From assembly GCF_029945535.1 (NCBI RefSeq), contig NZ_JAQSCU010000019.1:1-64000 (forward strand): a stretch of DNA of 64,000 nucleotides, written 5' to 3'. A program made the position numbers and the translations under genes. This stretch comes from Methylotenera sp. GTDB taxonomy: Bacteria; Pseudomonadota; Gammaproteobacteria; Burkholderiales; Methylophilaceae. Each line of letters starts with the position of its first letter. Positions within the stretch are counted from its first letter, which is position 1. Below the pieces are notes generated by a model that saw nothing but the letters and a program-made list of their open reading frames with translations, was not told where the DNA came from and did no database searches. Shown piece after piece: positions 43,433 to 60,483 of the stretch.

Positions 43433-45757
43433 TTAAAACTTATATTCAGTCGTAATGATAGCTTGTCTACGATTACCTGGCACAGTGAAACCGCCATTAT
43501 CATAAACATCACCATAGTAGGTTTTATCAAACAGATTCTTAACGTTTAAACGCACCGCCCATTTCTGTGCTTCATAAGCCAGCATTGCATCCCAACGTGT
43601 ATATCCAGGCGCAATATTTGGCTTAAACTCACCATTCACAAAATTAGCGCCGGCTCCGCCACTCGGATTATAACCATAGCGTTCATCTTTAGCTTCAAAG
43701 CCTCCACCAACTTTCCAGTTACCCAAAAATTTATAGGTGGTCCACATATTAAAAGTGACAGGTGCAGTATTACGAGCTCGCTGCCCTTTATATCCCGAAT
43801 ATGCGGGTGTAATAACACCAGTCGTTGCATTCACATTTTCAGCGACTTCTAAAATTTTTGCATCCATGAATGCTAGTCCGCTGAATATCTCCCAGTTATC
43901 AGTAATATTACCAGTCACCTCAAACTCCAAACCATCAGTACGGCGCTTTTTCGTTAAAATGCTTGCGGTTGCTTCCAAATCAGTACTACGTTCCCAATCT
44001 TTGGTAGTACGGTAAAGCGCTGTTCTAAAAGACAAATCACCATCTAAGAACAGCCACTTTGCACCCAGCTCTACCGTTTTACTTCTTTCCGGTGGTTGTG
44101 GCACAACCGTCAATTGATACAAATCAGCTGTCGGGCTAAATGAATCACTGTAACTCAGGTAATAATGATTTTCTGGTGTTTGGTGCCATGACAAACCTGC
44201 TCGATAACTATTCTCACCATAACTTAACTTAGGTGATGTAGCACTTGAATACTCTGCTCGCATTTCATCACGACGTACTCCTAATAACAAATCCCAATTT
44301 CGAACAAACTCAATCGTATCCTGCACATACGCAGCATAGTTATCTGCCTGAAACTTCGATGCTGCGGCAGAGCTATAAGAATTGCGATCGTAAAATACAC
44401 CATTTACTGCGATGGCACTGCTTAGCGCATTGTTATTAGCATTGGTATTATTCAAATTTCCGTATGATAAGCCTGTTGTTGCATTAAAGCCTTGCAAGCT
44501 ATGTCGCTCGGAGTCTTCTTTCAAATACTCGAGACCTGCCAAGAATTGGTTTTTCATGCCAGCCAAATCAAATTTGGTACTAAAATCGGACTGAATCGTG
44601 TCAGTTGTATACTGCGTGCTACGCGTTGTGTTGCCGTTAGAGAGGGTAACAGTGTCAGGGTTAGTAGCAAAATTGATAACCCCTGTTCCTGTAGCCGTTG
44701 GTGCTAAAGCACCAGACGTTTGTGCCCAATAGGCACGATCATAATCAGCATGCCTGATTTGCGTACGTAGTTGGGTATCTTCAGTAAATTTATGGGTAAA
44801 TATACCGGTCGTGATACTGGTCTCACTATCATCAAAATTGCGAGCTGTACCCCAGAATGTAGAGTCATTTCCAATGCTATTGTTAATAGGTCTGGTACTA
44901 ACAAAACGAATACCATAATCCGGCACATCTCTTGTTTTGGTATAAACGTGATTTAGAAAAAATTCGTTATTAGTGCCAATACCAGTACCAACACTTAAAG
45001 CGATACCTTGACGATCAGATTCTGGTCTGTCACCTGTTGCTGGATTTTCGCGGTAAGTCTCTTCCGAGCGATCCATCACATTGACACGGATAGCAGTAGT
45101 ATCACCTAATTTTTTATTAAAATCACCTGTAAATTGATGATAATTATATTCACCAAAACTACCCGTAACTGTGTTTTTATCAGCAAGCTCAGCCATTTTA
45201 GTGACTTGGTTAATCACACCACCCGCTTGACCGCGACCGAACAACATAGCGGCAGAGCCACGAAGCACATCAACTTGCTCTAGGTTAAATGTCTCACGGT
45301 AGTATTGAGCAGTATCGCGAACACCATCTAGATAAATATCACCGAAAGTATAAAAACCGCGTAAGTTAAAGTTATCACCACCACGACCACCTTCTGCCGC
45401 ATTAAAAGTTAAGCCAGAAACATTACGCAGTGCTTCACGCAATGAACTCACTTGCTGATCTTGCATCAAGCTATGTGTAACTGTAGTAATCGCTTGTGGA
45501 ATATCGTGTGGATCTTGCAGCACTTTGCCTACGCGTGTTTTAGTGGCTTGGTAGCCATCTGCTTTTGATTCTGTATTGGTGGCATTCACCTTCACTTCAC
45601 TAAGCTCCGCTGGTGCATTTTCCGCTTTATTTACGGTGGTTGGCACTGCTTTTTCTTTGTTTGCAGTATCTTCTGCCATGCTCACTAACGGGTAAGCTGA
45701 GGCAATAGCGATTGCGACGACATTCAATGCCAGCCTAGGCATTTTTCTTGATTTCAT
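43433..45757 (-). CDS. TonB-dependent catecholate-type siderophore receptor (Fiu-like)
   Basis: A 774-aa protein with a signal peptide of about 28 residues. The plug domain spans about 75-205 (TRVGKVLQDPHDIPQAITTV, GLTFNAAEGGRGGDNFNLRGF, VDVLRGSAAMLFGRGQAGGVINQVTK), followed by a 22-strand-type barrel ending in ITTEYKF. The long asparagine-rich extracellular loops and adjacent piuC resemble E. coli Fiu, a receptor for monomeric catechols; ligand assignment is by analogy only. Upstream are a paired AGCCAGCCA element and a Fur-box-like site. Confidence 0.9.
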   Translation of the reverse strand: MKSRKMPRLALNVVAIAIASAYPLVSMAEDTANKEKAVPTTVNKAENAPAELSEVKVNATNTESKADGYQATKTRVGKVLQDPHDIPQAITTVTHSLMQDQQVSSLREALRNVSGLTFNAAEGGRGGDNFNLRGFYTFGDIYLDGVRDTAQYYRETFNLEQVDVLRGSAAMLFGRGQAGGVINQVTKMAELADKNTVTGSFGEYNYHQFTGDFNKKLGDTTAIRVNVMDRSEETYRENPATGDRPESDRQGIALSVGTGIGTNNEFFLNHVYTKTRDVPDYGIRFVSTRPINNSIGNDSTFWGTARNFDDSETSITTGIFTHKFTEDTQLRTQIRHADYDRAYWAQTSGALAPTATGTGVINFATNPDTVTLSNGNTTRSTQYTTDTIQSDFSTKFDLAGMKNQFLAGLEYLKEDSERHSLQGFNATTGLSYGNLNNTNANNNALSSAIAVNGVFYDRNSYSSAAASKFQADNYAAYVQDTIEFVRNWDLLLGVRRDEMRAEYSSATSPKLSYGENSYRAGLSWHQTPENHYYLSYSDSFSPTADLYQLTVVPQPPERSKTVELGAKWLFLDGDLSFRTALYRTTKDWERSTDLEATASILTKKRRTDGLEFEVTGNITDNWEIFSGLAFMDAKILEVAENVNATTGVITPAYSGYKGQRARNTAPVTFNMWTTYKFLGNWKVGGGFEAKDERYGYNPSGGAGANFVNGEFKPNIAPGYTRWDAMLAYEAQKWAVRLNVKNLFDKTYYGDVYDNGGFTVPGNRRQAIITTEYKF

Positions 45758-45794: not shown

Positions 45795-45823
45795 TGGCTG
45801 GCTTGCAAGTGTGCTGGCTGGCT
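45795..45823 (-). promoter_or_regulatory. Paired AGCCAGCCA element (receptor leader, copy R1)
   Basis: Two exact AGCCAGCCA copies (sense strand) flank an 11-nt spacer that can pair as GCA-CACT-TGC. The proximal copy ends 37 nt upstream of the receptor ATG. The same architecture is found upstream of the three other iron-block receptors. A Fur-like box lies about 65 nt further upstream. Confidence 0.6.
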
Positions 45824-45887
45824 AATGAATGTTTTAATTGAGTGTTCTTACTAAAAATATCTAGCCAAAACTAGAGTATTGAATGCT

Positions 45888-45906
45888 AATAAGAACTATT
45901 CTCAAT
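45888..45906 (-). promoter_or_regulatory. Fur-box-like site
   Basis: The sense strand ATTGAGAATAGTTCTTATT matches the TGAGAAT-N-ATTCTCA form of the Fur consensus fully on the left half and at five of seven positions on the right. It lies about 130 nt upstream of the Fiu-like receptor start, in the 238-nt gap after the PepSY gene. This makes the receptor a separate, iron-repressed transcription unit. Confidence 0.55.
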
Positions 45907-45995
45907 ATGATAGCAAATTTAATCTTGGAAATAAAGTGTTAAGTTGAGTAAAGATTTAACTTAGTCACACGAATGAATACTAGAGAAAAGTAGAA

Positions 45996-46658
45996 TTAAC
46001 TAGACTGTATGACAAATATGATCGCCAGTAGTATTGAGCCTCCACTAAGCCCAACTAGCATTAGCCTAGAATTTCGCATTTTTGTCCAAAGCAAAACGCC
46101 TGTCATACACAGTAGGATAAGCGCACCTGCTAAGCTATCCACTAGCAATATCCAGCCATTATTCATGCCTACCCCTTTGTGCAGACGACTTAAAAATGCG
46201 AATACGTTAGCCTCTTGCCGCTTGACTGATACAAACTGGTTGCCCACCCAATACTCTGTGGTAACAGAATATTGGGCTGTATGAAAATCAACTTTCCATA
46301 ATGTGGGCTGTTGCACTTGCAAACCGTTCCATGTGACTTTTTTGCTAGGTTCAGCTTCCATTTTGCTGGCTGGCTTGGTCAAATGCAACTCACCCTGCAA
46401 CCATTGAGACAATTGCTTTGGATCGCTAAAGCCTGCACTAGGCAATTGCAGCTCAATATTAGATTTTTCATATTGAGCCAATGGCAACTTCATCACACTT
46501 CGATGGTTTAGCAAAATACCAGTAGTGCCAAATAACAAACCTAAGCCCGCACCCCATAAACCTAAAATACCATGCGTTTTACGTAACCACCGTAAAAATG
46601 CACCTCGGTTAAGAAGTGCTGGCTTAGCCACAGGACTAGTCTTTAAAATGATACTCAT
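45996..46658 (-). CDS. PepSY-associated transmembrane protein
   Basis: A 220-aa inner-membrane protein with a basic start followed by a helix (about 30-50, HGILGLWGAGLGLLFGTTGILLNH). A periplasmic PepSY-like segment follows (about 60-170), then HKGVGMNNGWILLVDSLAGALILLCMTGVLLW and a final helix. The family includes putative membrane reductases for ferric siderophores, although His patterns here are sparse. It ends the receptor-DUF4198-PepSY unit (30 nt gap). Confidence 0.82.
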   Translation of the reverse strand: MSIILKTSPVAKPALLNRGAFLRWLRKTHGILGLWGAGLGLLFGTTGILLNHRSVMKLPLAQYEKSNIELQLPSAGFSDPKQLSQWLQGELHLTKPASKMEAEPSKKVTWNGLQVQQPTLWKVDFHTAQYSVTTEYWVGNQFVSVKRQEANVFAFLSRLHKGVGMNNGWILLVDSLAGALILLCMTGVLLWTKMRNSRLMLVGLSGGSILLAIIFVIQSS

Positions 46659-46688
46659 AGTTGTACGATACTCACGGTTAGGCTGTAA

Positions 46689-47348
46689 TTATGGTTGCAC
46701 AATGCTTAGCGTACTGACATGTCGAATAGCCTCATAAGCGTCGCCTTGATAGCTACCGGCTGTGGGTTGCACATGCACCACTTCGAGCACATATAAGCCT
46801 TTCCAAGGGCTTACAAAACTCACTTCACCACTTTCGTTTAAATCCAACTCTTGGCTCCATTGATTTGGCGCATAGATATGTAATTTACCTTTTAGCAAGG
46901 GCCTGCCATCCAGACTCACACGTACTTTGTGGTCGCCAATTGACTGAATATCTAAGCCAACAGGCAATGCGGCTGCGTTCTTATCGTCACCAATACGGGC
47001 GTAATACATTGGTTTGACTATGCCAATATTATTTTTGCGTAAGTCTTTTACCTTCATTGTTAGCTCATGTGCAACTACAGCCTGATTCACAACGGGTTGA
47101 TGCTTAGCCGCTTCTAACAGCAAGTAATTTTCTTTGCGCTGTATTTCAAGCTTAGTTAAATTAGCCAGCGCTTCTGGTGCGGCAATAGTGTCTAATCGCC
47201 CGCCTGTTTTTTCGCGCAAACCGTTATCATATTCGCCAAAATAAAGCTTAGTTTGTCCGTCCGCTTGCTCTAACCACATAAAATGCGCTGATGCTGGCAA
47301 TGCAGTGAGCGCGCTGATTAATGCAGCAATAATGTTTAATTTTTTCAT
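46689..47348 (-). CDS. DUF4198 periplasmic protein
   Basis: A 219-aa protein with a signal peptide of about 21 residues (cleavage SA-HFMW). The N-terminal HFMWLEQADGQTKLYFGEY and later HKVRVSLDGRPLLKGKLHIYAPNQW match the DUF4198 group, whose mature protein often begins with a His that could bind metal (as in NikM/CbiK-like proteins). It is 25 nt after the TonB receptor gene. Role in metal uptake is inferred from context. Confidence 0.8.
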   Translation of the reverse strand: MKKLNIIAALISALTALPASAHFMWLEQADGQTKLYFGEYDNGLREKTGGRLDTIAAPEALANLTKLEIQRKENYLLLEAAKHQPVVNQAVVAHELTMKVKDLRKNNIGIVKPMYYARIGDDKNAAALPVGLDIQSIGDHKVRVSLDGRPLLKGKLHIYAPNQWSQELDLNESGEVSFVSPWKGLYVLEVVHVQPTAGSYQGDAYEAIRHVSTLSIVQP

Positions 47349-47373
47349 GATACTTATCCTCTTTTAGCCAATA

Positions 47374-49560
47374 TTATTTAAAGTCAAAACGCAATGTTGC
47401 AAAAATGCTACGCGGATCACCTGGTAATGCGCCTGCAAATGTTGGGCTTGTGTAATAAGTTTTGTCAGTAATGTTTTTAAGATTAAGTGCGGCTTGCCAC
47501 TTTGGCTGAGCATAAGAAATTGCAGCGTCATACACGGTATAAGCTGGTATTTTGTACAAGTTCAAATTGTCAGCATACGAATCGCCTTTATGTGTTGCGC
47601 CTATGCCAAACTTCAAGCCTTTCACATCACCTGTTTGAATTTCATAACTGGCAAAAATATTAAATATTTGCTCACTAACAGCCGTAGGACGTGTGCCATA
47701 AATACTGGTAAGCGGCACGCCTAAGGCATCATTTTTTGCTAGAGTTGTTGATTTAGTTTCAGCATCCATAAATACCGCATTGGCATTTACATTCAAGCCT
47801 GCAATTGGATGTACGCCAACATCCAACTCTACCCCTTTAGACTTATCCTTACCGTCTGGTGTGCCTACTGATGCGCCTGGCAGAGTGATAATATAGTTTT
47901 CACGCTTGGTATCGAACAGTGCAACATTTAAATCAATCTTACCCTGCAAAAAACTAGATTTAGTGCCAATCTCAAACTGTTCTGAGCTTTCAGGTACATC
48001 TACTAATATATTGCCTTCAGTAGCCATATTAATAAACTTACCGTTGCTAAACCCAGTATAAAACGCTAAGTTTGCAGTAGGCTGAAACACCGCCCCCAAC
48101 GAGCCTGTCGTCAGGTCTTTGGTTTCATCCACCACTCTGGCAACATTTGCGACATTATTAACAGTGGAAACACCTTTATCTTGGTAATTCACATGGTCGT
48201 TACGCAAGCCAACACGCACTTTAATCTTCTCACCAAATGCTAGTTGATCTTGCACATAAACAGAATTAGTATCGCTGGTGAGCTCTCTATTAAAACTTTG
48301 TATTGCTAGTTTAGCTAAGCTAGCCAAGCTAACTTCAGGTACAACTGGATTTAGAATATTGGTAATATTGGCTAGTGTATAACCTTGACGCAGAGTGTCA
48401 TTTTTTGTATTTTTATATTCGTAACCAGCCAGCACAGTATGCTTTACGCTACCAGTATCTACTTTCCAAGTTAGCTCGTTTTGAAACGTGGTGTAGCGTG
48501 CATCGTCAGATTGTTGGCGTAAATTACGATTCTTAATTAGGCCTGTTGCGTTGCCACCATCACCACCCGCATTTCGAATAAAATCTAAATCACGCGTATC
48601 ATTAGAAAAGACTGTGCGCATACTAAGTGCATTGTTAATTGCCCAGTCATGCGTGGCGGTGATGCGGTTAATATGCTGCTCTGAATAATCAAATGGCGTG
48701 TAATAACGTGTTTTGTCGCTCACATTGGCAATATTAGCTTTACCATCAAACAAAATGCCGTAGTTATCTGGCTTCACTTTAATATCACGCACATCCACAT
48801 CTATCAACAGCGTTTTGTCATCCGCATAGTTAAATGCAACGCTAGGTGAGAACTCGGTAATTTCTCGACCCAAACCGCGAATACCATCGGTTTTTTCAGT
48901 ATCAACAATTAAACGACCCGTCACACCTTGCGTGATTGTGCCAGTTAAATCCATGTAAGCATCACGCGTGTTAAAGCTGCCAAATGTTGTGCCGACCTCT
49001 AAGCCATATTCAGCTTGCGGCTTCTTTGTCACCACATTAATGCTGCCACCCGGCCCACCCGAGCCAAACAATGCTGAACCAGGTCCTTTTAGCACCTCAA
49101 TACGTTCAACATCGTACATAGTGCGGAAGTAACCATTTTGCGCAGTGCCATCAGGCAAGTCATCGCGTAAGAAATTAACCGCTAAACCTCGAGAGTTGTA
49201 GTTATTAGCATAACCATAACCACCGCCATGCTGTGGCTGCACGCTGCTCACGTTGCGCATCGCCTCATTCATGGTTTGTACGCCTTGCTCACGCAAAGTC
49301 TCAACAGGCACTACAGCGACACTGGCAGGTACATCACGTAATGGCGTATCGGTTTTGCTGCCTGTATGCGCTGCATCTTGCGGGTTACCTGCACGAATAC
49401 GGTTTTGCTTAACACTCACTTCTGGCAAAGCTTCACTCTCGTTTTGTAATGCTTCTGCTATTTTCTGCTCTTCTGCCACTTTTTGTTCTTGTGCCATGGC
49501 GGCCATTGAAGACAAAGCCAGCATCACTGCCAGCGTTAAGGTTTTTTGTTGCAAATTCAT
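47374..49560 (-). CDS. TonB-dependent siderophore receptor
   Basis: A 728-aa protein with a signal peptide of about 23 residues (AMA-QEQ). A plug domain spans about 65-190 (TPLRDVPASVAVVPVETLREQG, NEAMRNVSSVQPQHGGGYG, YDVERIEVLKGPGSALFGSGGPGGSINVVTKKP), followed by a beta-barrel ending in LRFDFK. The group is the ferric hydroxamate/citrate-type siderophore family; the ligand is unknown. It leads a unit with DUF4198 and a PepSY membrane protein and is preceded by a paired AGCCAGCCA element. Confidence 0.9.
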   Translation of the reverse strand: MNLQQKTLTLAVMLALSSMAAMAQEQKVAEEQKIAEALQNESEALPEVSVKQNRIRAGNPQDAAHTGSKTDTPLRDVPASVAVVPVETLREQGVQTMNEAMRNVSSVQPQHGGGYGYANNYNSRGLAVNFLRDDLPDGTAQNGYFRTMYDVERIEVLKGPGSALFGSGGPGGSINVVTKKPQAEYGLEVGTTFGSFNTRDAYMDLTGTITQGVTGRLIVDTEKTDGIRGLGREITEFSPSVAFNYADDKTLLIDVDVRDIKVKPDNYGILFDGKANIANVSDKTRYYTPFDYSEQHINRITATHDWAINNALSMRTVFSNDTRDLDFIRNAGGDGGNATGLIKNRNLRQQSDDARYTTFQNELTWKVDTGSVKHTVLAGYEYKNTKNDTLRQGYTLANITNILNPVVPEVSLASLAKLAIQSFNRELTSDTNSVYVQDQLAFGEKIKVRVGLRNDHVNYQDKGVSTVNNVANVARVVDETKDLTTGSLGAVFQPTANLAFYTGFSNGKFINMATEGNILVDVPESSEQFEIGTKSSFLQGKIDLNVALFDTKRENYIITLPGASVGTPDGKDKSKGVELDVGVHPIAGLNVNANAVFMDAETKSTTLAKNDALGVPLTSIYGTRPTAVSEQIFNIFASYEIQTGDVKGLKFGIGATHKGDSYADNLNLYKIPAYTVYDAAISYAQPKWQAALNLKNITDKTYYTSPTFAGALPGDPRSIFATLRFDFK

Positions 49561-49590
49561 TGAAACTCCCTTTTTATTTAGTTATTTTAT

Positions 49591-49635
49591 TGGCTGGCTA
49601 ACTAAACATTGCGGGGCAACACTTACTGGCTGGCT
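49591..49635 (-). promoter_or_regulatory. Paired AGCCAGCCA element (receptor leader, copy R2)
   Basis: Two AGCCAGCCA copies flank a 27-nt spacer with a TTGC-CCC-GCAA hairpin. The proximal copy lies 30 nt before the receptor start, upstream of the AAGGGAG ribosome binding site. The flank TTTAGTTAGCCAGCCAA is shared with copy R3. Confidence 0.65.
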
Positions 49636-49701
49636 AGAATTGTTTTATTTCTAGTGATTGTGAAGGTGCTCATGAGAACGCCTTCATAACAGTTCGATCT
49701 A

Positions 49702-50889
49702 TTAATAGGTGCTACTTCCTGCCTTAGTACTGGTTTCAGCTAAATAGCCTTTAACCACTTGCGCAGCAAAGCTTGAAATTTCTACTTCTGTTTTTTGTTT
49801 ACCCTCATTTAAATCCTGTGCGTAATTAAATGGTGATAAATATAGGCTGTCTTTATCAGCAGATGCACGTAGGTGAATAGGTTTATTCAACTGACTTAAA
49901 CTAGTCCACTGCTTACGCACCTCATGCCAAAATGGTTCAGTGCTTTTTAGATAAGTGTCACCCAATGCAAAGTCATAATCTTTGATACGTTCATAGCGAT
50001 CAAAACCCATTTCACGTGCAATTACAGGTGCTTTAACATCTGGTTTTGCATTAGCATCTAAAATAACCTTGTTGTTTTGCTGCTCATGCACCCAGCCAGT
50101 TGGCAAAATAATGTGTCGATTATTGCCTAGTAAGACTTGGTAATCGTTGCGCACAGTGTACTCACGTCGTGGTAATGGGCGCCATGTATCTGCACTGTTC
50201 CAATTTGAGTAATTGCCAAAATGTTGCCATGCCGCCACTCCGCCATAGCGTGGTGAATCGTCAACCTGATACACGGTTTGTGACCAAGTACCCTTTTGTT
50301 CAGCCTTTGGCACAGGCTGCGCCAGCCACGTGTTGTAGCCTTTATAAGTAAGCACTTGCTTAGGCTGATATTGCCAATCTTGGCGCCAATGTTTGGTCAC
50401 CATAGGTGGATTTTTAGTGCCGTCTTTATTCATGGTTTGCATGACTAAAATGTGCTGCAATGAAATAAAGTCTTCTTTATCTTCTAGCACATAGACTTTT
50501 TCTGTTGCCCAGCTTTGGTAAGGCGCTTTAGGTTGATAGTTTTCAGTAAAACCTGCCACTTCTATAAAGTCGAAACTCACTTTATATTCTCCAGCCATGG
50601 CTAGAATTGCGCGCCTATCTCGCTCTAAATGACTCAGATTTGGTTCTTGTAACTTTAACCAAGCTTCGCTAGGCGCTTTATCTAGTGTGACTGGTACACC
50701 TTTTGATGTACCACCACGTGGTTTTAAATCTGAACTATCGTTAAAGTTCCACGTAAAAGTGTATTGGCGTTGCTGGGTGTCGGCCGCTTGATGGCCGCTG
50801 CTGCCAGTGGTGTCCTCTGCCTGCACAGCAATAACATAAGATGCTGATAAAAGGATGGCCGCTAGTATTAAGTATTTAATTTTAAACAT
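49702..50889 (-). CDS. DUF6607-like secreted protein
   Basis: A 395-aa protein with a signal peptide of about 24 residues (VQA-ED). The mature part is soluble, with many aromatics (KHWRQDWQYQPKQVLTYKGYNTW, YGGVAAWQHFGNYSNWNSADTWRPLPRREYTVR). The pattern reminds me of DUF6607, seen next to TonB receptors, but I could not verify this. It is 41 nt after the heme-type receptor gene and is probably its periplasmic or surface partner. Confidence 0.6.
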   Translation of the reverse strand: MFKIKYLILAAILLSASYVIAVQAEDTTGSSGHQAADTQQRQYTFTWNFNDSSDLKPRGGTSKGVPVTLDKAPSEAWLKLQEPNLSHLERDRRAILAMAGEYKVSFDFIEVAGFTENYQPKAPYQSWATEKVYVLEDKEDFISLQHILVMQTMNKDGTKNPPMVTKHWRQDWQYQPKQVLTYKGYNTWLAQPVPKAEQKGTWSQTVYQVDDSPRYGGVAAWQHFGNYSNWNSADTWRPLPRREYTVRNDYQVLLGNNRHIILPTGWVHEQQNNKVILDANAKPDVKAPVIAREMGFDRYERIKDYDFALGDTYLKSTEPFWHEVRKQWTSLSQLNKPIHLRASADKDSLYLSPFNYAQDLNEGKQKTEVEISSFAAQVVKGYLAETSTKAGSSTY

Positions 50890-50930
50890 TTAATGCCTCT
50901 TGATATGAAGTGTTAATCACTAGATTTATA

Positions 50931-53204
50931 TTAGAAATGATAGGCAAAGCTTGCGGAAATATTACGCCCAGGCTGCGAGTAAAAATCTACACCTGCTGGA
51001 TCAGCAGCATCAGCTTGACGAATATCACTCCATAGAAAATACTTTTTATCGAATAAATTATTCAGTGCAACATTTACCTCAGCATCTTTAAATGGTTTCC
51101 ACCAAGCCGATAAATTGGTCACAACATAACCAGCTGGTTTATATTGCTGGCCGTTGCTATCATCAACCCTTGAAACTGCAACAGCACTGCGAACTCTAGT
51201 TTCAGCACCCCAATTTCCTGCATCGCGCATTAGGGCTAAACTTAAACGTGCTGGTTCAATGCTGCTTAAAGGCTGATTGCTTGATTCATTTTCACCATGT
51301 GCATAGGCAACAGCGCTATCAACGCTCCAGCCTGGCGTAAAGTCCCACTTGGTACGCGCTTCAACACCGTATATACGTACACGAGAAACATTTGTATTAA
51401 TAAAAGTCGTTGCTACGCCCGCTATGCATCGTGGGTCTGCTGGACAAGTTAAACGGACATTTTCAATAAAGTCTTTATAGCGATTGTCATACACAGAAAA
51501 CTGCCCGTTCACATTAGACGCATGCCATTTTGTACCTAGCTCGATGCCAACACTTGTTTCCGGGTCTAAATCTGAATTAGGGCTAATTGCATATTGTTGA
51601 ATACTGTTACGAAACGAGCCATTCACTTCGTCGTAATTGGGTGCACGAAAGCCTGTAGCCACTTGTCCGAACAATGACCATACAGAATCTAGTTTCCAAA
51701 TTGCGCCGAGCTTAGGTGAAAAGGCTGATTCTGTTTTCTCTACCGCATTGCGACCATTGGCTGTTAAAGCTTTTTGAAATAGCACATCGACCTCTGGCTT
51801 AAGATTGCGTCTATCAAAACGTAAGCCTGGTGTTAATGTAAGCTTGCCATCGGCTAAATTGCTAATCTCATCTTGCACAAAGAGGCCAACGGTATCAGTA
51901 ATCCCTTTAGGAAAATCGCGCATAGGGAACGTATCACCCGCAATGGTGTTGCTAACCGTACCAGTTGTTAAATTAAAGCGTGTTGCGTCACGGCGCTCTT
52001 CGCTGGTCAACCTAGAAACATCAATCCCATAAGTGAATAAATGCCCTTGCTGCCCAATTTTGCTAGCAGTTTCTAGCTGTACGCCACCACCTGTCGTGTC
52101 CTGCGTAATATTAAACTGCTGTTTAACCAAACAATTATTGCCTGCGCCAGCAGCCCCAGAGCAGGTTGCACTGGTGTTAGTACGCGTCTGTAAGTTATCG
52201 TTAGTCGTTTCAGCTTGCTGATGGTAACCGCGCAAGACTAGGCGATCATAAAACATATTTTCCGGCTTTTGCTCCCATTCAACACTCGCACGCCAGCGAT
52301 TAGTATTGTCACTGCCTTCCATGGCTGTAGTTTTTGGCGTTAAAGCCACTAGGCGTTTAATGCTGACATCAGCATCTTGGTCACGCCCCTCAAATGTCAG
52401 AGATAATTTATTCTTATCATTCGGACGTAAGGTAAATTTAGCAATCACACCCTGATCTTTAACATCTTGCTGGTTAGGTTTGGTGCGGTTAACCGCAGTA
52501 TTGTTATCGCCACCTTGATTATCAAACTCGCTAGCATCTGTGCGAGAGTATCCAAGCATCACGTCTAACATATCACCACGCCAAGCACCTAATAGAGAGT
52601 TGGTAAAACCATTGTTCTCGCCTGTATAGCCAAATCGATAGACTGCCCCATAGCTTTTATCCGCTTTTATGATGTCATCAGCATCTAAGGTAAGGTAACC
52701 CACCACCCCACCAATCGCATCAGACCCATATAAGCTAGAAGCTGATCCACGCAGGATTTCTACTCGTTTAAGAAAATCTTGCGAAACACCTAGCGGCCCA
52801 CTAAACGTAAAGTTAGTAGGACCTCCACTGTCATATACATCTGGCAAACGCACGCCGTCCACAATTTGCGCAATACGGTTGTTTTCAATGCCGCGAATAT
52901 TTAAACGCGTTGCGCCAAAGCGGCGCATATCCCGCGCAAAAGTTATATCTGGCTCATCTTTAAATAAATCAGTTTCATCGGCCGCCAAACCACGCGTTAA
53001 GGCTTGATGATTAATCACGGTAATCGTGGCGGGTATTTCATCGATAGCCGCTTCAGTACGCGTTGCAGTGACCGCTACTTGTGGCAAAGTGACTACATCC
53101 AATGCCGCTAATTTGGTTTCTTCATCTGCAATCGATTGCATAGAAGAAGTCGCAAGCATTAATGCGACTAACAGTTGTGAGGGTTGTTGCAATAACATTA
53201 TCAA
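50931..53204 (-). CDS. TonB-dependent heme/hemoglobin-type receptor
   Basis: A 757-aa protein with a signal peptide of about 25 residues. The plug (about 40-170) has VTVINHQALTRG, TRLNIRGIENNRIAQIVDG and VEILRGSASSLYGSDAIGGVVGYLT. The barrel carries TGFRAPNYDEVNGSFRN and SPNSDLDPETSVGIELG, corresponding to the FRAP and NPNL boxes of heme receptors. It ends in SFAYHF. It probably takes up heme from hemoproteins. hemP is in the same block. An AGCCAGCCA element overlaps its leader. Confidence 0.88.
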   Translation of the reverse strand: MIMLLQQPSQLLVALMLATSSMQSIADEETKLAALDVVTLPQVAVTATRTEAAIDEIPATITVINHQALTRGLAADETDLFKDEPDITFARDMRRFGATRLNIRGIENNRIAQIVDGVRLPDVYDSGGPTNFTFSGPLGVSQDFLKRVEILRGSASSLYGSDAIGGVVGYLTLDADDIIKADKSYGAVYRFGYTGENNGFTNSLLGAWRGDMLDVMLGYSRTDASEFDNQGGDNNTAVNRTKPNQQDVKDQGVIAKFTLRPNDKNKLSLTFEGRDQDADVSIKRLVALTPKTTAMEGSDNTNRWRASVEWEQKPENMFYDRLVLRGYHQQAETTNDNLQTRTNTSATCSGAAGAGNNCLVKQQFNITQDTTGGGVQLETASKIGQQGHLFTYGIDVSRLTSEERRDATRFNLTTGTVSNTIAGDTFPMRDFPKGITDTVGLFVQDEISNLADGKLTLTPGLRFDRRNLKPEVDVLFQKALTANGRNAVEKTESAFSPKLGAIWKLDSVWSLFGQVATGFRAPNYDEVNGSFRNSIQQYAISPNSDLDPETSVGIELGTKWHASNVNGQFSVYDNRYKDFIENVRLTCPADPRCIAGVATTFINTNVSRVRIYGVEARTKWDFTPGWSVDSAVAYAHGENESSNQPLSSIEPARLSLALMRDAGNWGAETRVRSAVAVSRVDDSNGQQYKPAGYVVTNLSAWWKPFKDAEVNVALNNLFDKKYFLWSDIRQADAADPAGVDFYSQPGRNISASFAYHF

Positions 53205-53222
53205 ACTCCGTCATATAGTGGT

Positions 53223-53285
53223 TGGCTGGCTAACTAAATGTTGACGGTCAATCGAAATTGACGGAGCAATCGTTACTGGCTGGCT
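53223..53285 (-). promoter_or_regulatory. Paired AGCCAGCCA element (receptor leader, copy R3)
   Basis: Two AGCCAGCCA copies flank a 45-nt spacer. The spacer contains a 6-bp stem GTCAAT-TTCG-ATTGAC with a UUCG tetraloop in the sense RNA. The proximal copy is only 18 nt before the receptor ATG, next to the GGAG ribosome binding site. It sits between azurin and the heme-type receptor. Confidence 0.68.
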
Positions 53286-53335
53286 AAATTTTATAAAAAA
53301 TTACTAAGTGGCTAAATTACAAAACAGTGCCACTT

Positions 53336-53815
53336 CTAAACTAACTTAACTGCACCTTTCATCATAAAAGCATGACCAGGAAACGAGCAGAAAAATGTAT
53401 AACTATCAGTTGAATTTAGCTTACTTACGTTAAATTTTGCTGTTGATGTCTCACCGCCGCCGATTACTTTAGTTGCCATAATCACGCGGGCGTCTTTAGC
53501 TTTTACGTAGTCACCTGCCGCTCCTGACTGAATGCCATCATCTAACACCGCTTGCTGATCACTCACCTTAGCAATCACCAAATTATGCCCCATCACATTC
53601 TTAGCAATTTTTCCTACGTGCTTAAGGTTAACGGTAAACTCTTTACAGCTTTTCGAAACTTCTATGCTTTTAGTATTAAATGCCATGGCATCATTAGCTT
53701 CTACCGTGATTTCACAACTAGTAGTGGCAGCCTGTGCTGCAGGCGTGGTAGATAAAATAAAGACAGCGATAAAAAATAAAATAACTGAAGCGATGAATAA
53801 TCTTTGTGTCGTCAT
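53336..53815 (-). CDS. Azurin-family blue copper protein
   Basis: A 159-aa periplasmic electron carrier with a signal peptide of about 29 residues (AQA-AT). Type 1 copper ligands are visible: His in VMGHNLV near residue 77, then Cys, His and Met in [14 protein letters not shown] near 143-152. Two further Cys (SCEI and SCKEF) form the usual disulfide. Its place between two TonB receptors of an iron block is unusual. It might donate electrons for periplasmic ferric reduction or be a bystander. Confidence 0.92.
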
Positions 53816-53936
53816 GATGATTTCCTTAATTGATAGAATTTTATGGATAAATTGTTAGTGCCTTTTAAATAGCATCATTAAATACGCGCTCTGCAAGCCG
53901 CATAAATATTGCGACTGCAAAGCATGTGAATGCGTA

Positions 53937-56174
53937 TTAGAACTTATAAGTTAAGCTGCCGATCACACTGCGCATATCTCCGTAATAACATTGTGAAGCA
54001 TCACAATTGGATATAAATTCTTTATCGGTTAGGTTACGTGCGTTGAGTGCAAGCTCCCATTGGCCTGTGGTATAGCCCAACATTGCATCCACTAGGGTGT
54101 AAGCAGATAGCGCCTTTGGTGCGCTTTCGTCTACCCCCTTGGTTGATCCCACATAACGCAAACCCAGCCCTGCCTTGATGCCACTAAGCCATTGGTAATC
54201 AGTCCAAAGAGAGATTTGATGCAGCGGAACGGGGTTTGCCTGCTTGCCAACCGAGCTAGGATTGGCTGGATTGCGAATCACATTCGCCTCTGGTGTCCAC
54301 GTCCAAGCGGCCACCACATTCAGGCGGTCAATTGGTTGTAGATTAGCTTCAAGCTCAAGCCCACGCACACGAATTTCTCCGTTTTGCTTGGGGATAAAAT
54401 TACTGTCTGAATTCACCACATTATCACGCGTCAACTGGAAAACAGCTGCACTGTAAGTGGCTTTGCTTTGCGGTGGCTGGTAACGCAAGCCGACTTCATA
54501 TTGATTGCCACTTTCTGGGTCAAACGGTTTACCAGTGGCTGGGTTAATAGTGGTATTGGGCACAAAGGATTCGCTGTAGCTTACATAAGGCGCAAAGCCA
54601 TTTGGCGCCAAGTAAACTAAACCAGCACGCCCTGTAAGTTTGCTATCACTCTGTTGCGATTTTGACGAGGTTAGATTGTCGGTGGCGTTTATCTTCGCGC
54701 TGTCATAGCGCCCACCCAACGTGGCTACCCAGCGTTCATCAAATTTAACCTGATCTTGCAGGTAAATGCCTGTTTGTTTAAGCTTGGTGCTGGCATTAGC
54801 GTAAGGCGCGGAGGTTGCGATAGTGCCAGTAGTGGCACCAGTATAAGCATCTATCGTGGTGCCGCTATCATCATAAATAGTATACTGGCCATAACTGCTG
54901 CGCTGATAATCTAAGCCTGTAAGAAACGTATGCTTAAACGCGCCAAAATCAAATTTGGCCTCAAACTGGTTATCGATATTAAAAGCCGTTGCTTGTTCTA
55001 TGCTAGTAAAATTTTTGCGCTTCAAGGTGCGGAAATTTGCTGGATCACTGGGGTTACCAGCGTTAGCATTGACAAAAGCATCAGGATAAAGCGCTCCATA
55101 ATCCATGTCCATTTTGCCATAGCGCGTGCTTTGGCGAAAAGCAAAGCGGTCATTCAATTTGTGTTCAAGCTTATAGCCTATCATCCATTGATTTTGGTTA
55201 AGCCTGTCAAAATCTTTATCACCAAAATAAGTATCGGCCGAAATTTTGCCATTTGGATTAGGTAAAATAGACCCCTCTCTCGGCAAAGCGCGTGAGTATA
55301 CGCCAGCCCTATCTTTTAAATAGGAGGCTTGCAGATCAAGCGTTGTGGCATCGGATATTTTCCAAGTGAGCGAAGGGGCAATAAAAGCATGGTCATCTTT
55401 CATCCCACCAATAGGCAGCTCAGCATCGCGCAGCACGCCCACAATGCGATACAGCACGCTACCATCATCGTTAACTGGCCCTGTAAAATCACCCGAAATT
55501 TGACGGCGTGCGTCATTACCCACTTGTACTTGCAACTCGCGGCTTGTTTCTTCTAAAGGTTTTTTGCTGACGATATTGGTCATACCGCCAGGGCTATTTT
55601 GACCGTAAAGCACAGAAGAAGGCCCGCGCATTAATTCAATACGTTCGGTGGCGTAATTTTCTGTGCGCCACACGCCCCAAGTGTTATTGTTGCGCAGTTG
55701 CAGGCCATCTAAATAAAAGCCAGGTGTTAGGGCATAAAATCCACGCACATTAAACCACTCAAAACGCGACTCAGCACCGTAAGGCGCAGCAGTGACTCCG
55801 GCCGAATATCCCAAAGCATCACGTACGCGATTAGCACCAATCGCTTTTGCAAAGTCTGAAGTAATCACGGAGATAGATTGCGGTGTTTCGATAATCGGCG
55901 TGTCTGTTTTAGTTGCTGATGCTGTGCGTTTGGCGACGTAGCCATGGACTGGACCAGTCGCAGTTTCCTGCTCAGCTTTTGCTTCCACCTTAACTTCTGG
56001 CAAGGTTTCTGATTTATTAGCTGCATTATTTTTTGCACTATCAGTCACAGCTTCAGCAGAAGCTTGTGACTCTAAGTTAGCATCAGCTGCAATGGCAAAC
56101 TGCGGCAGCGCCGCAATAATAGCAATGAAAATAATTTTTTGACGCGCGACCTTATCGCACAATAGATATTGCAT
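53937..56174 (-). CDS. TonB-dependent siderophore receptor, FhuA/FoxA-like
   Basis: A 745-aa protein with a signal sequence of about 29 residues (AIA-AD) after a basic start. The plug (about 75-215) has TPIIETPQSISVITSDFAKAIG, RVRDALGYSAGV, WFNVRGFYALTPGFYLDGLQ and IELMRGPSSVLYGQNSPGGMTNIVSKKP. The barrel ends in VIGSLTYKF. The pattern resembles ferrichrome/ferrioxamine receptors; the ligand is not proven. Two Cys near the C-terminus (NCDASQCYYGD) are typical. It follows the 57-aa membrane protein and an AGCCAGCCA element. Confidence 0.9.
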   Translation of the reverse strand: MQYLLCDKVARQKIIFIAIIAALPQFAIAADANLESQASAEAVTDSAKNNAANKSETLPEVKVEAKAEQETATGPVHGYVAKRTASATKTDTPIIETPQSISVITSDFAKAIGANRVRDALGYSAGVTAAPYGAESRFEWFNVRGFYALTPGFYLDGLQLRNNNTWGVWRTENYATERIELMRGPSSVLYGQNSPGGMTNIVSKKPLEETSRELQVQVGNDARRQISGDFTGPVNDDGSVLYRIVGVLRDAELPIGGMKDDHAFIAPSLTWKISDATTLDLQASYLKDRAGVYSRALPREGSILPNPNGKISADTYFGDKDFDRLNQNQWMIGYKLEHKLNDRFAFRQSTRYGKMDMDYGALYPDAFVNANAGNPSDPANFRTLKRKNFTSIEQATAFNIDNQFEAKFDFGAFKHTFLTGLDYQRSSYGQYTIYDDSGTTIDAYTGATTGTIATSAPYANASTKLKQTGIYLQDQVKFDERWVATLGGRYDSAKINATDNLTSSKSQQSDSKLTGRAGLVYLAPNGFAPYVSYSESFVPNTTINPATGKPFDPESGNQYEVGLRYQPPQSKATYSAAVFQLTRDNVVNSDSNFIPKQNGEIRVRGLELEANLQPIDRLNVVAAWTWTPEANVIRNPANPSSVGKQANPVPLHQISLWTDYQWLSGIKAGLGLRYVGSTKGVDESAPKALSAYTLVDAMLGYTTGQWELALNARNLTDKEFISNCDASQCYYGDMRSVIGSLTYKF

Positions 56175-56215
56175 GGTGTATCCCCTGTAATGTAAAGCTA
56201 GCTCAAAATTGATTT

Positions 56216-56249
56216 TGGCTGGCTACAGGCGATACCGCTTTGGCTGGCT
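56216..56249 (-). promoter_or_regulatory. Paired AGCCAGCCA element (receptor leader, copy R4)
   Basis: Two AGCCAGCCA copies flank a 16-nt spacer that can pair as GCG-GTAT-CGC. The proximal copy lies 41 nt before the receptor start. No clear Fur box is seen between this element and the gene upstream. Confidence 0.62.
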
Positions 56250-57650: not shown

Positions 57651-58073
57651 TTAGTTTTTTGGTTCACTGACAAAACCTAGTTTCGTCACACCTGCATTTT
57701 GCGCATCCGCCATTACTTCTGCCAGTACTTGATAACGCGTTTCTTTATCTGCTCGAATATTCAATTCTGGCTGCGGTTTTTTACCTGCAATTTCTTGCAA
57801 CTTAACTTTCAATTCACCTTGCACCAAGGCTGCATCATTCCAATACATTTTGCCTGCTGCATCTATCGATACCGAAATCACTTCTGGCTTCTCAGGTAGC
57901 GGCTGGCTGCTAGCTTGTGGCAAATCAATTTTCACCGCATGCGTCAGCAATGGCGCAGTAATAATAAAGATGACCAATAGCACCAACATCACATCGACCA
58001 GAGGCGTAGTATTAATTTCTGACATTGGCGTTGTGTGTGAAGCAGACCCTACGCCGTTTCCTGAGCCTATCAT
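57651..58073 (-). CDS. exbD: Biopolymer transport protein ExbD
   Basis: A 140-aa protein with a short cytoplasmic start (MIGSGNGVGSASHTTPMSEINTTP). A single membrane helix contains the essential Asp in LVDVMLVLLVIFIITAP (about 25-42), followed by a periplasmic domain. It pairs with ExbB to power TonB. Its start overlaps the exbB stop by 4 nt. Confidence 0.95.
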   Translation of the reverse strand: MIGSGNGVGSASHTTPMSEINTTPLVDVMLVLLVIFIITAPLLTHAVKIDLPQASSQPLPEKPEVISVSIDAAGKMYWNDAALVQGELKVKLQEIAGKKPQPELNIRADKETRYQVLAEVMADAQNAGVTKLGFVSEPKN

Positions 58074-58813
58074 GCTGGTACTCCAGCAATGTGAGCGCGC
58101 TCTTTAGTTTCTACTGAGGATTTTGCATCTTCATGGTTAACATTAATCACCGCACCTGTAGTCAGTAATGTATGCAGTGCATAACCAAAGTCCTCAAGCT
58201 CAGCTGCCAGCAATCGATTACTACGCACCAATGCGTTATAAGCGAGTACGGCAGGTATGGCTACCGCCAACCCCAAAGCTGTCATAATCAATGCTTCACC
58301 TACAGGTCCAGCTACTTTATCTAGCGTGGCTTGACCACTCTGGCTAATACTTGCAAGCGCATGATAGATGCCCCATACCGTGCCAAATAACCCTACAAAT
58401 GGTGAAATGCTACCTACCGACGCTAATACGCTAAGGCCGTTTTCCATCTTAGTATTTTCTTCCGCAATACTGCGGTTCAAAGCACGTGCCACAAACTCGT
58501 CTTGCGCTACCTTTTCACTATTTTTTGACGCATGCGTTTTATAGTGTTCAGCTGCAGCAATAGCGTTTTTTGCTAAGCTAGCCAGTGCAGTTTTATTGTT
58601 TTGTTTAATGGCAACCGCTAGATTTGGTGCGTTCCAAAAATGTTGCGCATAAGCTTTAAATGCTTTGCGTACGCGGAATGCTTGCAAGCTTTTTGAAACG
58701 ATTAAGTACCAACTTGCCACTGACATTGCTAGCAAAATCAGTGCAACCCCTATAGATACTGGGCCACCAGCTGTAATAAACGCCAAGCTATTAAATTCAT
58801 ACCCGTTTTGCAT
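58070..58813 (-). CDS. exbB: Biopolymer transport protein ExbB
   Basis: A 247-aa MotA/TolQ/ExbB-type protein with three membrane helices (about 20-40, 130-155, 175-198). It has the conserved LASVGSISPFVGLFGTVWGIYHALAS block and the final PVGEALIMTALGLAVAIPAVLAYN. It lies in the hemP-tonB-exbB-exbD unit, distinct from the tolQ at 28640. Confidence 0.95.
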   Translation of the reverse strand: MQNGYEFNSLAFITAGGPVSIGVALILLAMSVASWYLIVSKSLQAFRVRKAFKAYAQHFWNAPNLAVAIKQNNKTALASLAKNAIAAAEHYKTHASKNSEKVAQDEFVARALNRSIAEENTKMENGLSVLASVGSISPFVGLFGTVWGIYHALASISQSGQATLDKVAGPVGEALIMTALGLAVAIPAVLAYNALVRSNRLLAAELEDFGYALHTLLTTGAVINVNHEDAKSSVETKERAHIAGVPA

Positions 58814-58876: not shown

Positions 58877-59665
58877 TTAATTATTGAGTGAAAATTTTAC
58901 TGGCACCAAAACATAAGCACTGATTGCCTGATTGCTGCGCTTAGCTGGAATAAAGCTCCACTTTTTCACCGCCTCTATTGCCGCTTGGTCTAGCTTTTCA
59001 AAGCCGCTACTCGTCGCTAACACTACGGTTTCCGCTGTGCCATTCTCAGCAACTAACACCTTTAGCAACACGCGCCCTTGCTGCCCCAACCTTCTCGCCA
59101 TTTGCGGATAATCTGGCGCAGGATTATTCAAGTAAGCCGCACCAAATCGTGGCGGCTCGACTACTGGCTCAGCTACAATTTTTGGTGGTGGCGTCTCTAT
59201 TACTTCAGGTGCTTTTGCAACCACGACTGGTGCCGCAGGCATAGGCGGTGCCTCAGTGACTACTGGCTGAGCAACCTCTTGTACAACAGCAACAGGTTTA
59301 GGTATTGGCTGCTGCTTTTTAATGATAGGTTTCTGCTGCTTAATGACAGGCTGTGGTGGCGTAGGAGTTAATGGTACAACTTCAGGCTCCGGTGCAGGGC
59401 TAGCCACTAAACTGACCATCATCGGCACTTGCAACTCTTTAATGATAGGCTGCGTCGCCTTAGCATTGATTAGCATTAACACTGCAACTATATGGACACA
59501 CACCACCACCGCCAACACGCCGTAAGAATTTGTCACTTTATTAGGGCTATTTTTACGGCCCGCGTGGACTGATGCTAATCCCTTAACTTTCAATTCATAA
59601 ACACCACCTGCATCACTTTGCGTTTGGGTTTTATGAAGATTATTTACAAGCGTTAATGTCTGCAT
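58877..59665 (-). CDS. tonB: Energy transducer TonB
   Basis: A 262-aa protein with a cytoplasmic start, a membrane helix at about 48-68 (YGVLAVVVCVHIVAVLMLI), then a Pro/Lys/Val-rich periplasmic spacer (VIKQQKPIIKKQQPIPKP). The C-terminal TonB domain (about 185-262) has NPAPDYPQMARRLGQQGRVLLKV and KKWSFIPAKR. It energises the four receptors of this block. The start at 59665 is accepted, although an ATG about 100 nt downstream cannot be excluded. Confidence 0.95.
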   Translation of the reverse strand: MQTLTLVNNLHKTQTQSDAGGVYELKVKGLASVHAGRKNSPNKVTNSYGVLAVVVCVHIVAVLMLINAKATQPIIKELQVPMMVSLVASPAPEPEVVPLTPTPPQPVIKQQKPIIKKQQPIPKPVAVVQEVAQPVVTEAPPMPAAPVVVAKAPEVIETPPPKIVAEPVVEPPRFGAAYLNNPAPDYPQMARRLGQQGRVLLKVLVAENGTAETVVLATSSGFEKLDQAAIEAVKKWSFIPAKRSNQAISAYVLVPVKFSLNN

Positions 59666-59700: not shown

Positions 59701-59892
59701 CTACTTAGTTAAAATTAGCTTGCCTTGATTAGTCAATCGCAAACGATAGTCTTCACCCGCATGCTTGATTACCAATTCACGGGCGCCAGAAAATAACACC
59801 TCGCTCGTCACCACTCGATTGCTAGCAACATTTTGTGGCGTCTCTTTATTTAGGCGATCAAACTCTAATTGGCTAAGCATTTCATTCTTCAT
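59701..59892 (-). CDS. hemP: Hemin uptake protein HemP
   Basis: A 63-aa protein with the HemP signature in its last 40 residues (RVVTSEVLFSGARELVIKHAGEDYRLRLTNQGKLILTK). HemP is a small protein (35-80 aa) encoded with heme uptake genes and is often Fur-controlled; in some beta/alphaproteobacteria it activates hmuR. It leads the unit and has a strong Fur box 38-56 nt upstream. It is followed by tonB (35 nt). Confidence 0.93.
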   Translation of the reverse strand: MKNEMLSQLEFDRLNKETPQNVASNRVVTSEVLFSGARELVIKHAGEDYRLRLTNQGKLILTK

Positions 59893-59929
59893 TTAAATTG
59901 TTCGTGAGTACCGCTTAAATACAAACACA

Positions 59930-59948
59930 AATGATAACAATTATCATT
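59930..59948 (-). promoter_or_regulatory. Fur box upstream of hemP-tonB
   Basis: The sequence AATGATAACAATTATCATT is near-palindromic and matches the Fur 19-bp consensus (TGATAAC-N-ATTATCA core). It lies 38-56 nt upstream of hemP and would repress hemP-tonB-exbB-exbD in iron-replete cells. Confidence 0.85.
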
Positions 59949-59984
59949 TGTAAATGCAACTCTATGTTTATTGTTAACTTATAC

Positions 59985-60227
59985 TCAATGCAAGCCGAAA
60001 TTCTGCTGCATTTCTTGCGTAAATCTGGCTTTTTCTTGCTTATAAGACTTCATACTTGTCGCAGCTTCGTTTATTAATTTACTTAGCAGATCTAACGAGT
60101 GTGAATCTATCCGTAGACTCACCGCGCCGATTTCCAGCTCTAGCACATCACAGCTTTCACAAAATGCAATCGCACCACCTTCATTTCTAGACAGGAGTAT
60201 TCTTGAATGTTGGCTTCTAGGTTTCAT
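59985..60227 (-). CDS. Small hypothetical protein, paralogue of the 68-aa neighbour
   Basis: An 80-aa cytoplasmic protein with a basic start, a CESCDVLELEIGAVSLRID beta segment and a C-terminal helix with LLSKLINEAATSMKSYKQEKARF. The segments ELEIGAVSLRI and LLSKLINEAA align with ELEVGGTSLRF and MNEMLRKAA of the next gene at 60277, so the two are distant paralogues. A Cys pair (CESC) could bind a metal. It is immediately upstream of the hemP Fur box. The family is not recognised. Confidence 0.6.
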   Translation of the reverse strand: MKPRSQHSRILLSRNEGGAIAFCESCDVLELEIGAVSLRIDSHSLDLLSKLINEAATSMKSYKQEKARFTQEMQQNFGLH

Positions 60228-60276: not shown

Positions 60277-60483
60277 TCACGCATGATGCAATTCCGTTTG
60301 CATGACCAGCTTAGCTGCTGCTTTACGCAGCATCTCGTTCATCATAAAAAAGTTTCGCGCTTCAAATCTTAATGAAGTGCCACCAACCTCTAACTCAATC
60401 ATGTCTTTTGCTTTGTTATAAAACACTTTGCATTCTTGATTGCCAGCCAACTTTGCTTGGCTAATGATTAGCTGCTTTTTCAT
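60277..60483 (-). CDS. Small hypothetical protein next to Fur box
   Basis: 68 aa: a short strand, Cys-containing QECKVFYNKA, then MIELEVGGTSLRFEARNFFMMNEMLRKAAAKLVMQ and a His-rich end (TELHHA). It is a distant paralogue of the 80-aa protein at 59985 and shares the strand-turn-helix core. It starts 32-50 nt after a Fur-box-like site, so it is probably iron-repressed. The family and function are unknown. Confidence 0.6.
   Translation of the reverse strand: MKKQLIISQAKLAGNQECKVFYNKAKDMIELEVGGTSLRFEARNFFMMNEMLRKAAAKLVMQTELHHA

Follow-up and report, generated by a model that had tools for sequence, protein, structure and literature searches.

Repeat–hairpin–repeat leader elements before four Methylotenera iron-receptor genes are HmuP/HemP-responsive elements and probably act as translational switches

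In a 64,000-nucleotide (nt) stretch of the Methylotenera sp. genome (contig NZ_JAQSCU010000019.1, positions 1–64,000; hereafter the window), four genes for TonB-dependent iron receptors are each preceded by one RNA control element, in which two exact copies of AGCCAGCCA flank a spacer that can fold into a hairpin. We identify these elements as HmuP/HemP-responsive elements (HPREs), the elements of the HemP/HmuP regulators, and the HemP encoded in the same window probably reads all four. Comparison across unrelated copies places the element on RNA and points to a likely mechanism, a translational switch operated by HemP in which the spacer either hides or frees the ribosome-binding site.

The repeat AGCCAGCCA has 10 exact matches in the window compared to 0.60 expected, a number that no shuffle reached. 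Eight of them form the four receptor-upstream pairs, all on the minus strand, where an original prediction made from the sequence alone had placed them; the other two lie in coding sequence (21901, plus strand; 46367, minus strand), as it had also noted. The spacers of 11, 27, 45 and 16 nt and the four hairpins named at that time can indeed be drawn, and the receptor gene at 33977 lacks the element, as then stated. Measured from the end of the proximal copy, the distance to the ATG is 37, 30, 24 and 41 nt for elements 1–4; of the 18–41 nt originally given, the upper value holds and the lower becomes 24 nt, because the figure of 18 nt relied on a TTG start at 53204, for which the ATG at 53198, preceded by a Shine–Dalgarno (SD) sequence, is the better choice. 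A covariance-model search of the whole genome (3.0 Mb) returned the four window elements only (E-values from 2e-9 to 3e-5; next candidate 0.008), with no convincing degenerate additional element. All other exact TAGCCAGCCA sites in the genome overlap open reading frames (ORFs), so the repeats are not common in unrelated intergenic DNA, and 4 of the 11 TonB receptor (Plug) genes of the genome are preceded by the element. Rfam yielded no gathering-score match in the window except one tRNA and no match at E ≤ 1 in 12 other loci bearing the element, while a literature search for the bare 9-mer produced just unrelated primers among the papers listed.

The identity with the HPRE, which the original prediction had missed together with the presence of hemP inside the same window, rests on several shared properties. 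The name HPRE comes from work on E. meliloti (Amarelle, Koziol & Fabiano 2019, BioMetals 32:273, as cited in PMC9131926 and PMC9241770). The published HPRE of Chromobacterium violaceum chuR, CCCGCAAGCCAGCCGACAGCCAGCCAGCG, located 26 nt before the ATG, contains AGCCAGCC twice (PMC9131926). For the defining gene, shmR of Sinorhizobium meliloti, the leader extracted from CP090106.1 reads CAGCCAGCC-cTTGAG-TTCGCCG-CTCAAcagca-AGCCCGGCC, followed by the ATG; a hairpin (TTGAG..CTCAA) lies between the repeats, of which the second is degenerate, and the plan is that of the window elements. (This 3.7-Mb S. meliloti record is labelled pSymB, contains trpE, hmu and shmR, and is probably a mislabelled chromosome.) Repeat–hairpin–repeat arrangements were also found before one B. 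multivorans heme receptor and one Methylocystis receptor. The window elements have the AGCCAGCC-type direct repeats of shmR and chuR, a position in the predicted 5′ leader of TonB receptors (24–41 nt from the four ATGs), a predicted RNA secondary structure borne out by hairpin covariation, and a correlation with hemP/hmuP in the genome. They do not respect the limits to heme receptors and to Alpha- and Betaproteobacteria that papers citing the original work attach to the HPRE, limits that are descriptive and not structural.

Published work on C. violaceum found that the HemP-family protein ChuP is required for full expression of the heme receptor gene chuR and the siderophore receptor gene vbuA, both of which carry HPREs (PMC9131926). 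ChuP acts positively and binds heme, and no binding to chu DNA was found; chuR lacks its own promoter, transcript abundance is lower in the chuP mutant, and a post-transcriptional role was proposed (PMC9131926). The mode of action of HemP/HmuP is disputed between transcriptional activator, repressor and post-transcriptional activator, and a 2022 study drew the mechanism as ‘unknown’.

To describe the distribution, genomes were sampled by species, with kinship handled by the removal of similar spacers alone. A search for two exact repeats as a pair gave matches in 22 of 101 relatives, in 27 of the 399 genomes drawn from the order (Burkholderiales) and in 23 of the 303 drawn from the class, compared to about one genome per survey for the repeat pattern read backward; exact repeats undercount degenerate HPREs such as that of shmR. 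Tandem arrays of AGCC in three genomes (G007, G093, G620) and a repeated tract in G504 fit the pattern through their composition and were left out. The curated set comprised 95 elements, partly hand-picked, and an automatic selection gives the same result. These copies stand in sense orientation at a median of 34 nt 5′ of the start codon. Named hosts of the element include Methylotenera, Nitrosospira, Nitrosomonas, Thiobacillus, Rhodoferax, Limnohabitans, Polynucleobacter, Herminiimonas, Massilia and Methyloglobulus. hemP is present in 26 of the 27 element-bearing Burkholderiales genomes compared to 151 of 399 overall (Fisher p = 4.6e-11). A short gene ending in ..NGKLILTK, which is hemP/hmuP, lies immediately before several of the elements, and in 33 of 119 cases the element starts 5–72 nt past the hemP stop, so close that a promoter would have little or no space. 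The element is also present in Gammaproteobacteria outside Burkholderiales, including Methyloglobulus; about 14 such genomes of the class sample bear it before a receptor, and 12 of these have hemP. A 2022 paper, citing the original HPRE work, gives the HPRE as absent from Gammaproteobacteria.

Spacers of unrelated copies have little sequence in common, yet their two ends pair. Among 45 non-redundant spacers, the best helix between a spacer’s own halves scored 10.06, compared to 7.17 ± 0.31 when right halves were swapped among elements (z = 9.3; 0/2000). In a 42-sequence alignment, registers −1, 0 and +1 were paired in 50–58% and other registers in 30–41%, and the covariation score was 0.309 against 0.183 ± 0.030 (0/500). 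The pairing register shifts by about a base, which fits a linker of variable length. Receptor genes whose products are 71–88% identical to that at 43433 keep the repeats and differ in their hairpins (e.g., GCAC..., GCAGTTCTGCA, GTGAG...CTCAGTT), and the orthologs of element 1 have either GCA..UGC closing other loops or a hairpin of another sequence. Covariation, once proposed as a check of the RNA reading, thus extends across unrelated copies, and the element is not absent before orthologous receptors, which have it with different spacers. These tests support a candidate RNA element whose repeats are invariant and whose hairpin is free in sequence, yet kept in pairing.

Folding of whole leaders brought out a second property, a complementarity of the spacer to the SD region of its own gene. 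Beside the perfect match of element 3 (Table 1), GUAUC.CCUGUA in the spacer of element 4 complements UACAGG.GAUAC around GGGG, and at other loci the spacer–SD matches reach 13 bp (one locus), 11 bp (one) and 10 bp (two). Over 57 non-redundant leaders, the helix with the own SD scored 14.25 compared to 11.85 ± 0.32 with swapped partners (z = 7.5; 0/1000). In a positional scan the signal peaked at −14..+1 (z = 5.4), was raised from about −20 to +25, and was near zero past +28 and in four windows 5′ of the first repeat, which makes an artefact of base composition unlikely. In 39 loci that had not been used before, automatic selection provided 8 non-redundant elements, for which z was 2.9 for the hairpin and for SD pairing alike, with control values of 0.3 and 1.3; the corresponding z values of the automatically selected discovery set were 7.0 and 5.7, respectively. 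SD pairing and the local hairpin compete for common spacer bases, and so exclude each other, in 18 of 20 strong cases, which implies a translational switch. When the repeats were forced to be single-stranded and the hairpin closed, predicted SD accessibility rose from 0.36 to 0.53 overall and from 0.24 to 0.55 in the strong cases, a comparison that is illustrative only, because the constraint itself abolishes the competing fold.

Table 1. Coordinates of the four elements, their predicted spacer–SD pairings, the receptor genes and the hemP–tonB region in the window.
Feature	Position	Strand	Description
Element 1, distal repeat	45815..45823	-	AGCCAGCCA
Element 1, spacer	45804..45814	-	GCACACTTGCA, 11 nt; hairpin GCA/UGC (GCA-CACU-UGC)
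Element 1, proximal repeat	45795..45803	-	
Element 2, distal repeat	49627..49635	-	
Element 2, spacer	49600..49626	-	GTAAGTGTTGCCCCGCAATGTTTAGTT, 27 nt; local hairpin UAAGUGUUGC/GCAAUGUUUA (UUGC-CCC-GCAA)
Element 2, proximal repeat	49591..49599	-	
Element 3, distal repeat	53277..53285	-	
Element 3, spacer	53232..53276	-	45 nt; internal hairpin GUCAAU-UUCG-AUUGAC
Element 3, proximal repeat	53223..53231	-	
Element 4, distal repeat	56241..56249	-	
Element 4, spacer	56225..56240	-	AAGCGGTATCGCCTGT, 16 nt; local hairpin GCG-GUAU-CGC
Element 4, proximal repeat	56216..56224	-	
Anti-SD in element 3 spacer	53259..53267	-	GCUCCGUCA
SD region, receptor 50931	53205..53213	-	UGACGGAGU; perfect 9 bp complement of 53259-53267
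SD region, receptor 53937	56178..56189	-	UACAGGGGAUAC; partner of element 4 spacer
Receptor 43433	43433..45757	-	TonB-dependent, Fiu / TonB-siderophore-like; best matches under curated cut-offs
Receptor 47374	47374..49560	-	TonB-dependent, siderophore type; just under TIGR01783 cut-off
Receptor 50931	50931..53198	-	TonB-dependent, hemoglobin/heme type; above TIGR01785/TIGR01786 cut-offs; preferred ATG 53198
Receptor 53937	53937..56174	-	TonB-dependent, siderophore; above TIGR01783 cut-off; FhuA/FoxA-like
exbD	57651-58073	-	
exbB	58070-58813	-	
tonB	58877-59665	-	directly downstream of hemP; followed by exbB, exbD
hemP	59701..59892	-	ORF, 63 aa, ending ..GKLILTK; PF10636, 66 bits
Fur-box-like site	59927..59951	-	5′ of hemP; ATGATAATTGTTATCAT core

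We regard it as likely that these observations reflect a switch in translation. At low iron, Fur would derepress hemP and some receptor promoters, and the hairpin and both repeats would emerge in transcription ahead of the SD. Without HemP, the spacer would pair with the SD region and translation would be off. A HemP dimer would grip both repeats on the nascent leader and lock the spacer as a local hairpin, leaving the SD free, with the receptors translated and their mRNA stabilised. In this way a single small protein would turn on four receptors (one heme-type, the rest siderophore-type or -like) near tonB-exbB-exbD. Binding of HemP to the leader RNA, the sign of regulation in Methylotenera and the role of heme all belong to the predicted part of this model, which would account for activation by HemP, the invariant repeats, a spacer that varies freely yet covaries, the position of the element and the differences in spacing. 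A structure model of the window HemP suggests a disordered N-terminus, one helix and three strands; the homologs 4ynx and 2jra were deposited with two chains, and 2jra is described as domain-swapped. On balance, although with little to spare, we also favour a generalization: HPREs would be a large family of translational switches operated by a protein, in which the ~60-residue HemP captures the nascent element and prevents sequestration of the ribosome-binding site by the spacer. The broad iron regulon thus controlled, in Alpha-, Beta- and Gammaproteobacteria, would comprise receptors for heme and siderophores together with P19 iron transport, multicopper oxidase, ferritin and sigma factors.

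A number of observations weigh against such a switch. The spacer of element 1 (45795) showed no SD complementarity, element 2 pairs mainly just 5′ of the SD (3′ part of the spacer, 49600-49608, with 49575-49583), and shmR has little SD complementarity. The own SD ranks in the top 5% of partners for just 25% of non-redundant elements. The predicted SD-paired fold is more stable by ~11 kcal/mol on average, which means that HemP would have to act during transcription or bind tightly. The published chuR HPRE is almost without a spacer (PMC9131926); the hairpin is therefore not universal. One genome bears the element with no hemP detected. In cited papers HemP is reported to activate transcription directly in Burkholderia multivorans and Bradyrhizobium and to be a repressor in Stenotrophomonas, and the HemP literature examined contains no demonstration of HemP–RNA binding.

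Some of these points would suit a different role on the same RNA, in which HemP reads the HPRE but slows decay of the mRNA or brings in the ribosome, with the spacer–SD complementarity as a modest by-product. SD pairing is indeed not found in every element (element 1; S. meliloti), and the chuP mutant has less transcript (PMC9131926); transcript data cannot discriminate here, because lost translation also destabilises mRNA. We nevertheless consider this alternative rather unlikely, as each spacer complements its own gene specifically, and the signal centres on the ribosome-binding site, is absent in control windows and recurs in the unused loci. The original prediction had left the choice between an RNA leader read by an RNA-binding protein near the ribosome-binding site, a paired operator with variable spacing, and a small RNA (sRNA). 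Of these, the RNA leader with its protein is supported, because the hairpin covaries, the position is 5′-leader or intercistronic, and the spacer matches the SD region of its own gene in complementarity; the other two found no support.

A paired DNA operator near the promoter, bound by a transcription factor that might be HemP itself, would agree with the cited report that HemP binds DNA in B. multivorans and with the AT-rich sequence that often precedes the first repeat in Methylophilaceae. It is nonetheless improbable, since the repeat spacing (17–54 nt start to start) has no 10.5-bp helical phase, many copies lie 5–50 nt past the hemP stop with little or no promoter room, covariation of hairpin and SD is a property of RNA, and ChuP does not bind chu DNA (PMC9131926). 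Pooled flanks show no −10 box at a fixed distance and no other conserved upstream sequence, only a C/T preference right before the repeat. Even less probable is a trans-acting sRNA carrying UGGCUGGCU that pairs with the repeats, which are invariant and unpaired like a seed target: the element co-occurs with hemP, published genetics implicate HemP/HmuP (PMC9131926), and no intergenic exact TGGCTGGCTA source was seen in the genome, where exact TAGCCAGCCA/TGGCTGGCTA sites elsewhere all overlap ORFs, the 9-mer with other flanks not having been exhaustively searched. We give almost no credence to a mask in cis, in which the repeats would pair with GCUGGC signal-peptide codons and cover the first part of the coding region; GGCUGGC or GCUGGCU does occur early in the coding sequence of two window receptors, but the 6-mers occur in 30 of 95 genes compared to 26.6 ± 3.6 in synonymous-codon shuffles, with likewise no excess for 7- and 8-mers, and this candidate was rejected.

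The genes downstream of HPREs extend beyond receptors. A Plug-domain protein follows 63 of the 95 curated elements, and other targets encode the Fe2+ transport protein P19 (6 of 95), multicopper oxidases (3), ferritin, azurin and extracytoplasmic function (ECF) sigma factors. At two loci an HPRE lies 27–28 nt before a FecI-like ECF sigma factor gene (with Sigma70 region 2 in one of them), which would bring surface-signalling cascades under HemP. For the multicopper oxidase genes, one of them in Nitrosomonas and another in Nitrosomonadaceae, the start is ~100 nt away, longer than usual. One HPRE with a convincing hairpin lies 5′ of a bacterioferritin-like gene, whose role in storage and not uptake is odd for an uptake activator. 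At seven loci in several genera, several of them directly after hemP, helical-looking proteins of 69–106 aa each have their own HPRE; the members tested have no Pfam or NCBIfam match, and these proteins are possible new members of the HemP pathway.

Within the window, two tandem small proteins of 80 and 68 aa that resemble each other (59985-60227 and 60277-60483, minus strand) are encoded between a strong Fur-box-like site (60512) and hemP. The first has a CxxC motif, and no Pfam family was found for them except a weak DUF6686 hint; their Methylobacter/Methyloglobulus relatives, at four loci, come after hemP with their own HPRE. An azurin/plastocyanin-type gene (53336-53815) lies between two HPRE-bearing receptor genes, and a relative of it in a same-family genome has its own HPRE. 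A DUF4198-like gene (weak match; 46689-47348) and a DUF6607 gene (49702-50889) are also located between the receptors; in another place (L037/L056), a DUF4198-like gene bears an HPRE.

Both the class of element and its connection with HemP were known before. Relative to the HPRE literature examined, the hairpin covariation, the own-SD complementarity, the presence of four elements at one hemP locus before mainly siderophore-type receptors, the P19, multicopper oxidase, ferritin, azurin and ECF sigma factor targets, and the occurrence in Gammaproteobacteria outside Burkholderiales appear to be new. On the comparative evidence the element belongs firmly to RNA, and for many of the genes a specific switch between base pairings is predicted, so that the question of the HemP mechanism becomes testable by a few point mutations. 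It further suggests that HemP is a broad regulator of iron uptake rather than a heme-only one, and that HPREs extend to Gammaproteobacteria.

Among known leader regulators, CsrA/RsmA is a small, dimeric protein rich in strands that binds leaders at two sites. The HPRE resembles this dual-site arrangement in its two short, single-stranded motifs flanking a hairpin close to the ribosome-binding site and in its probable reader, likewise small, strand-rich and presumably dimeric. However, the window motif is AGCCAGCCA and not GGA, its action is probably activation, and the elements do not fit the definition of the CsrA/Rsm group by GGA motifs in loops and a csrA-family reader; HemP showed no fold or sequence relation to CsrA in comparisons that matched it to its own family only (YdiE, RPA2121, 2loj). 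Riboswitches at ribosome-binding sites conceal or expose the SD by mutually exclusive leader folds, a principle that the HPRE would share; in contrast to these, its effector is probably a protein, HemP, and not a small ligand bound by the RNA, and no Rfam family matches. With the HPRE as described in the cited literature, the window elements share the AGCC-type direct repeats, the 5′ leader position, the hemP/hmuP link and the kind of target, and the shmR leader has the matching repeat–hairpin–repeat. They differ in that four elements belong to one hemP locus and mostly precede siderophore-type receptors, and the present comparison adds hairpin covariation, complementarity to the own SD, and a range of targets beyond receptors and into Gammaproteobacteria.

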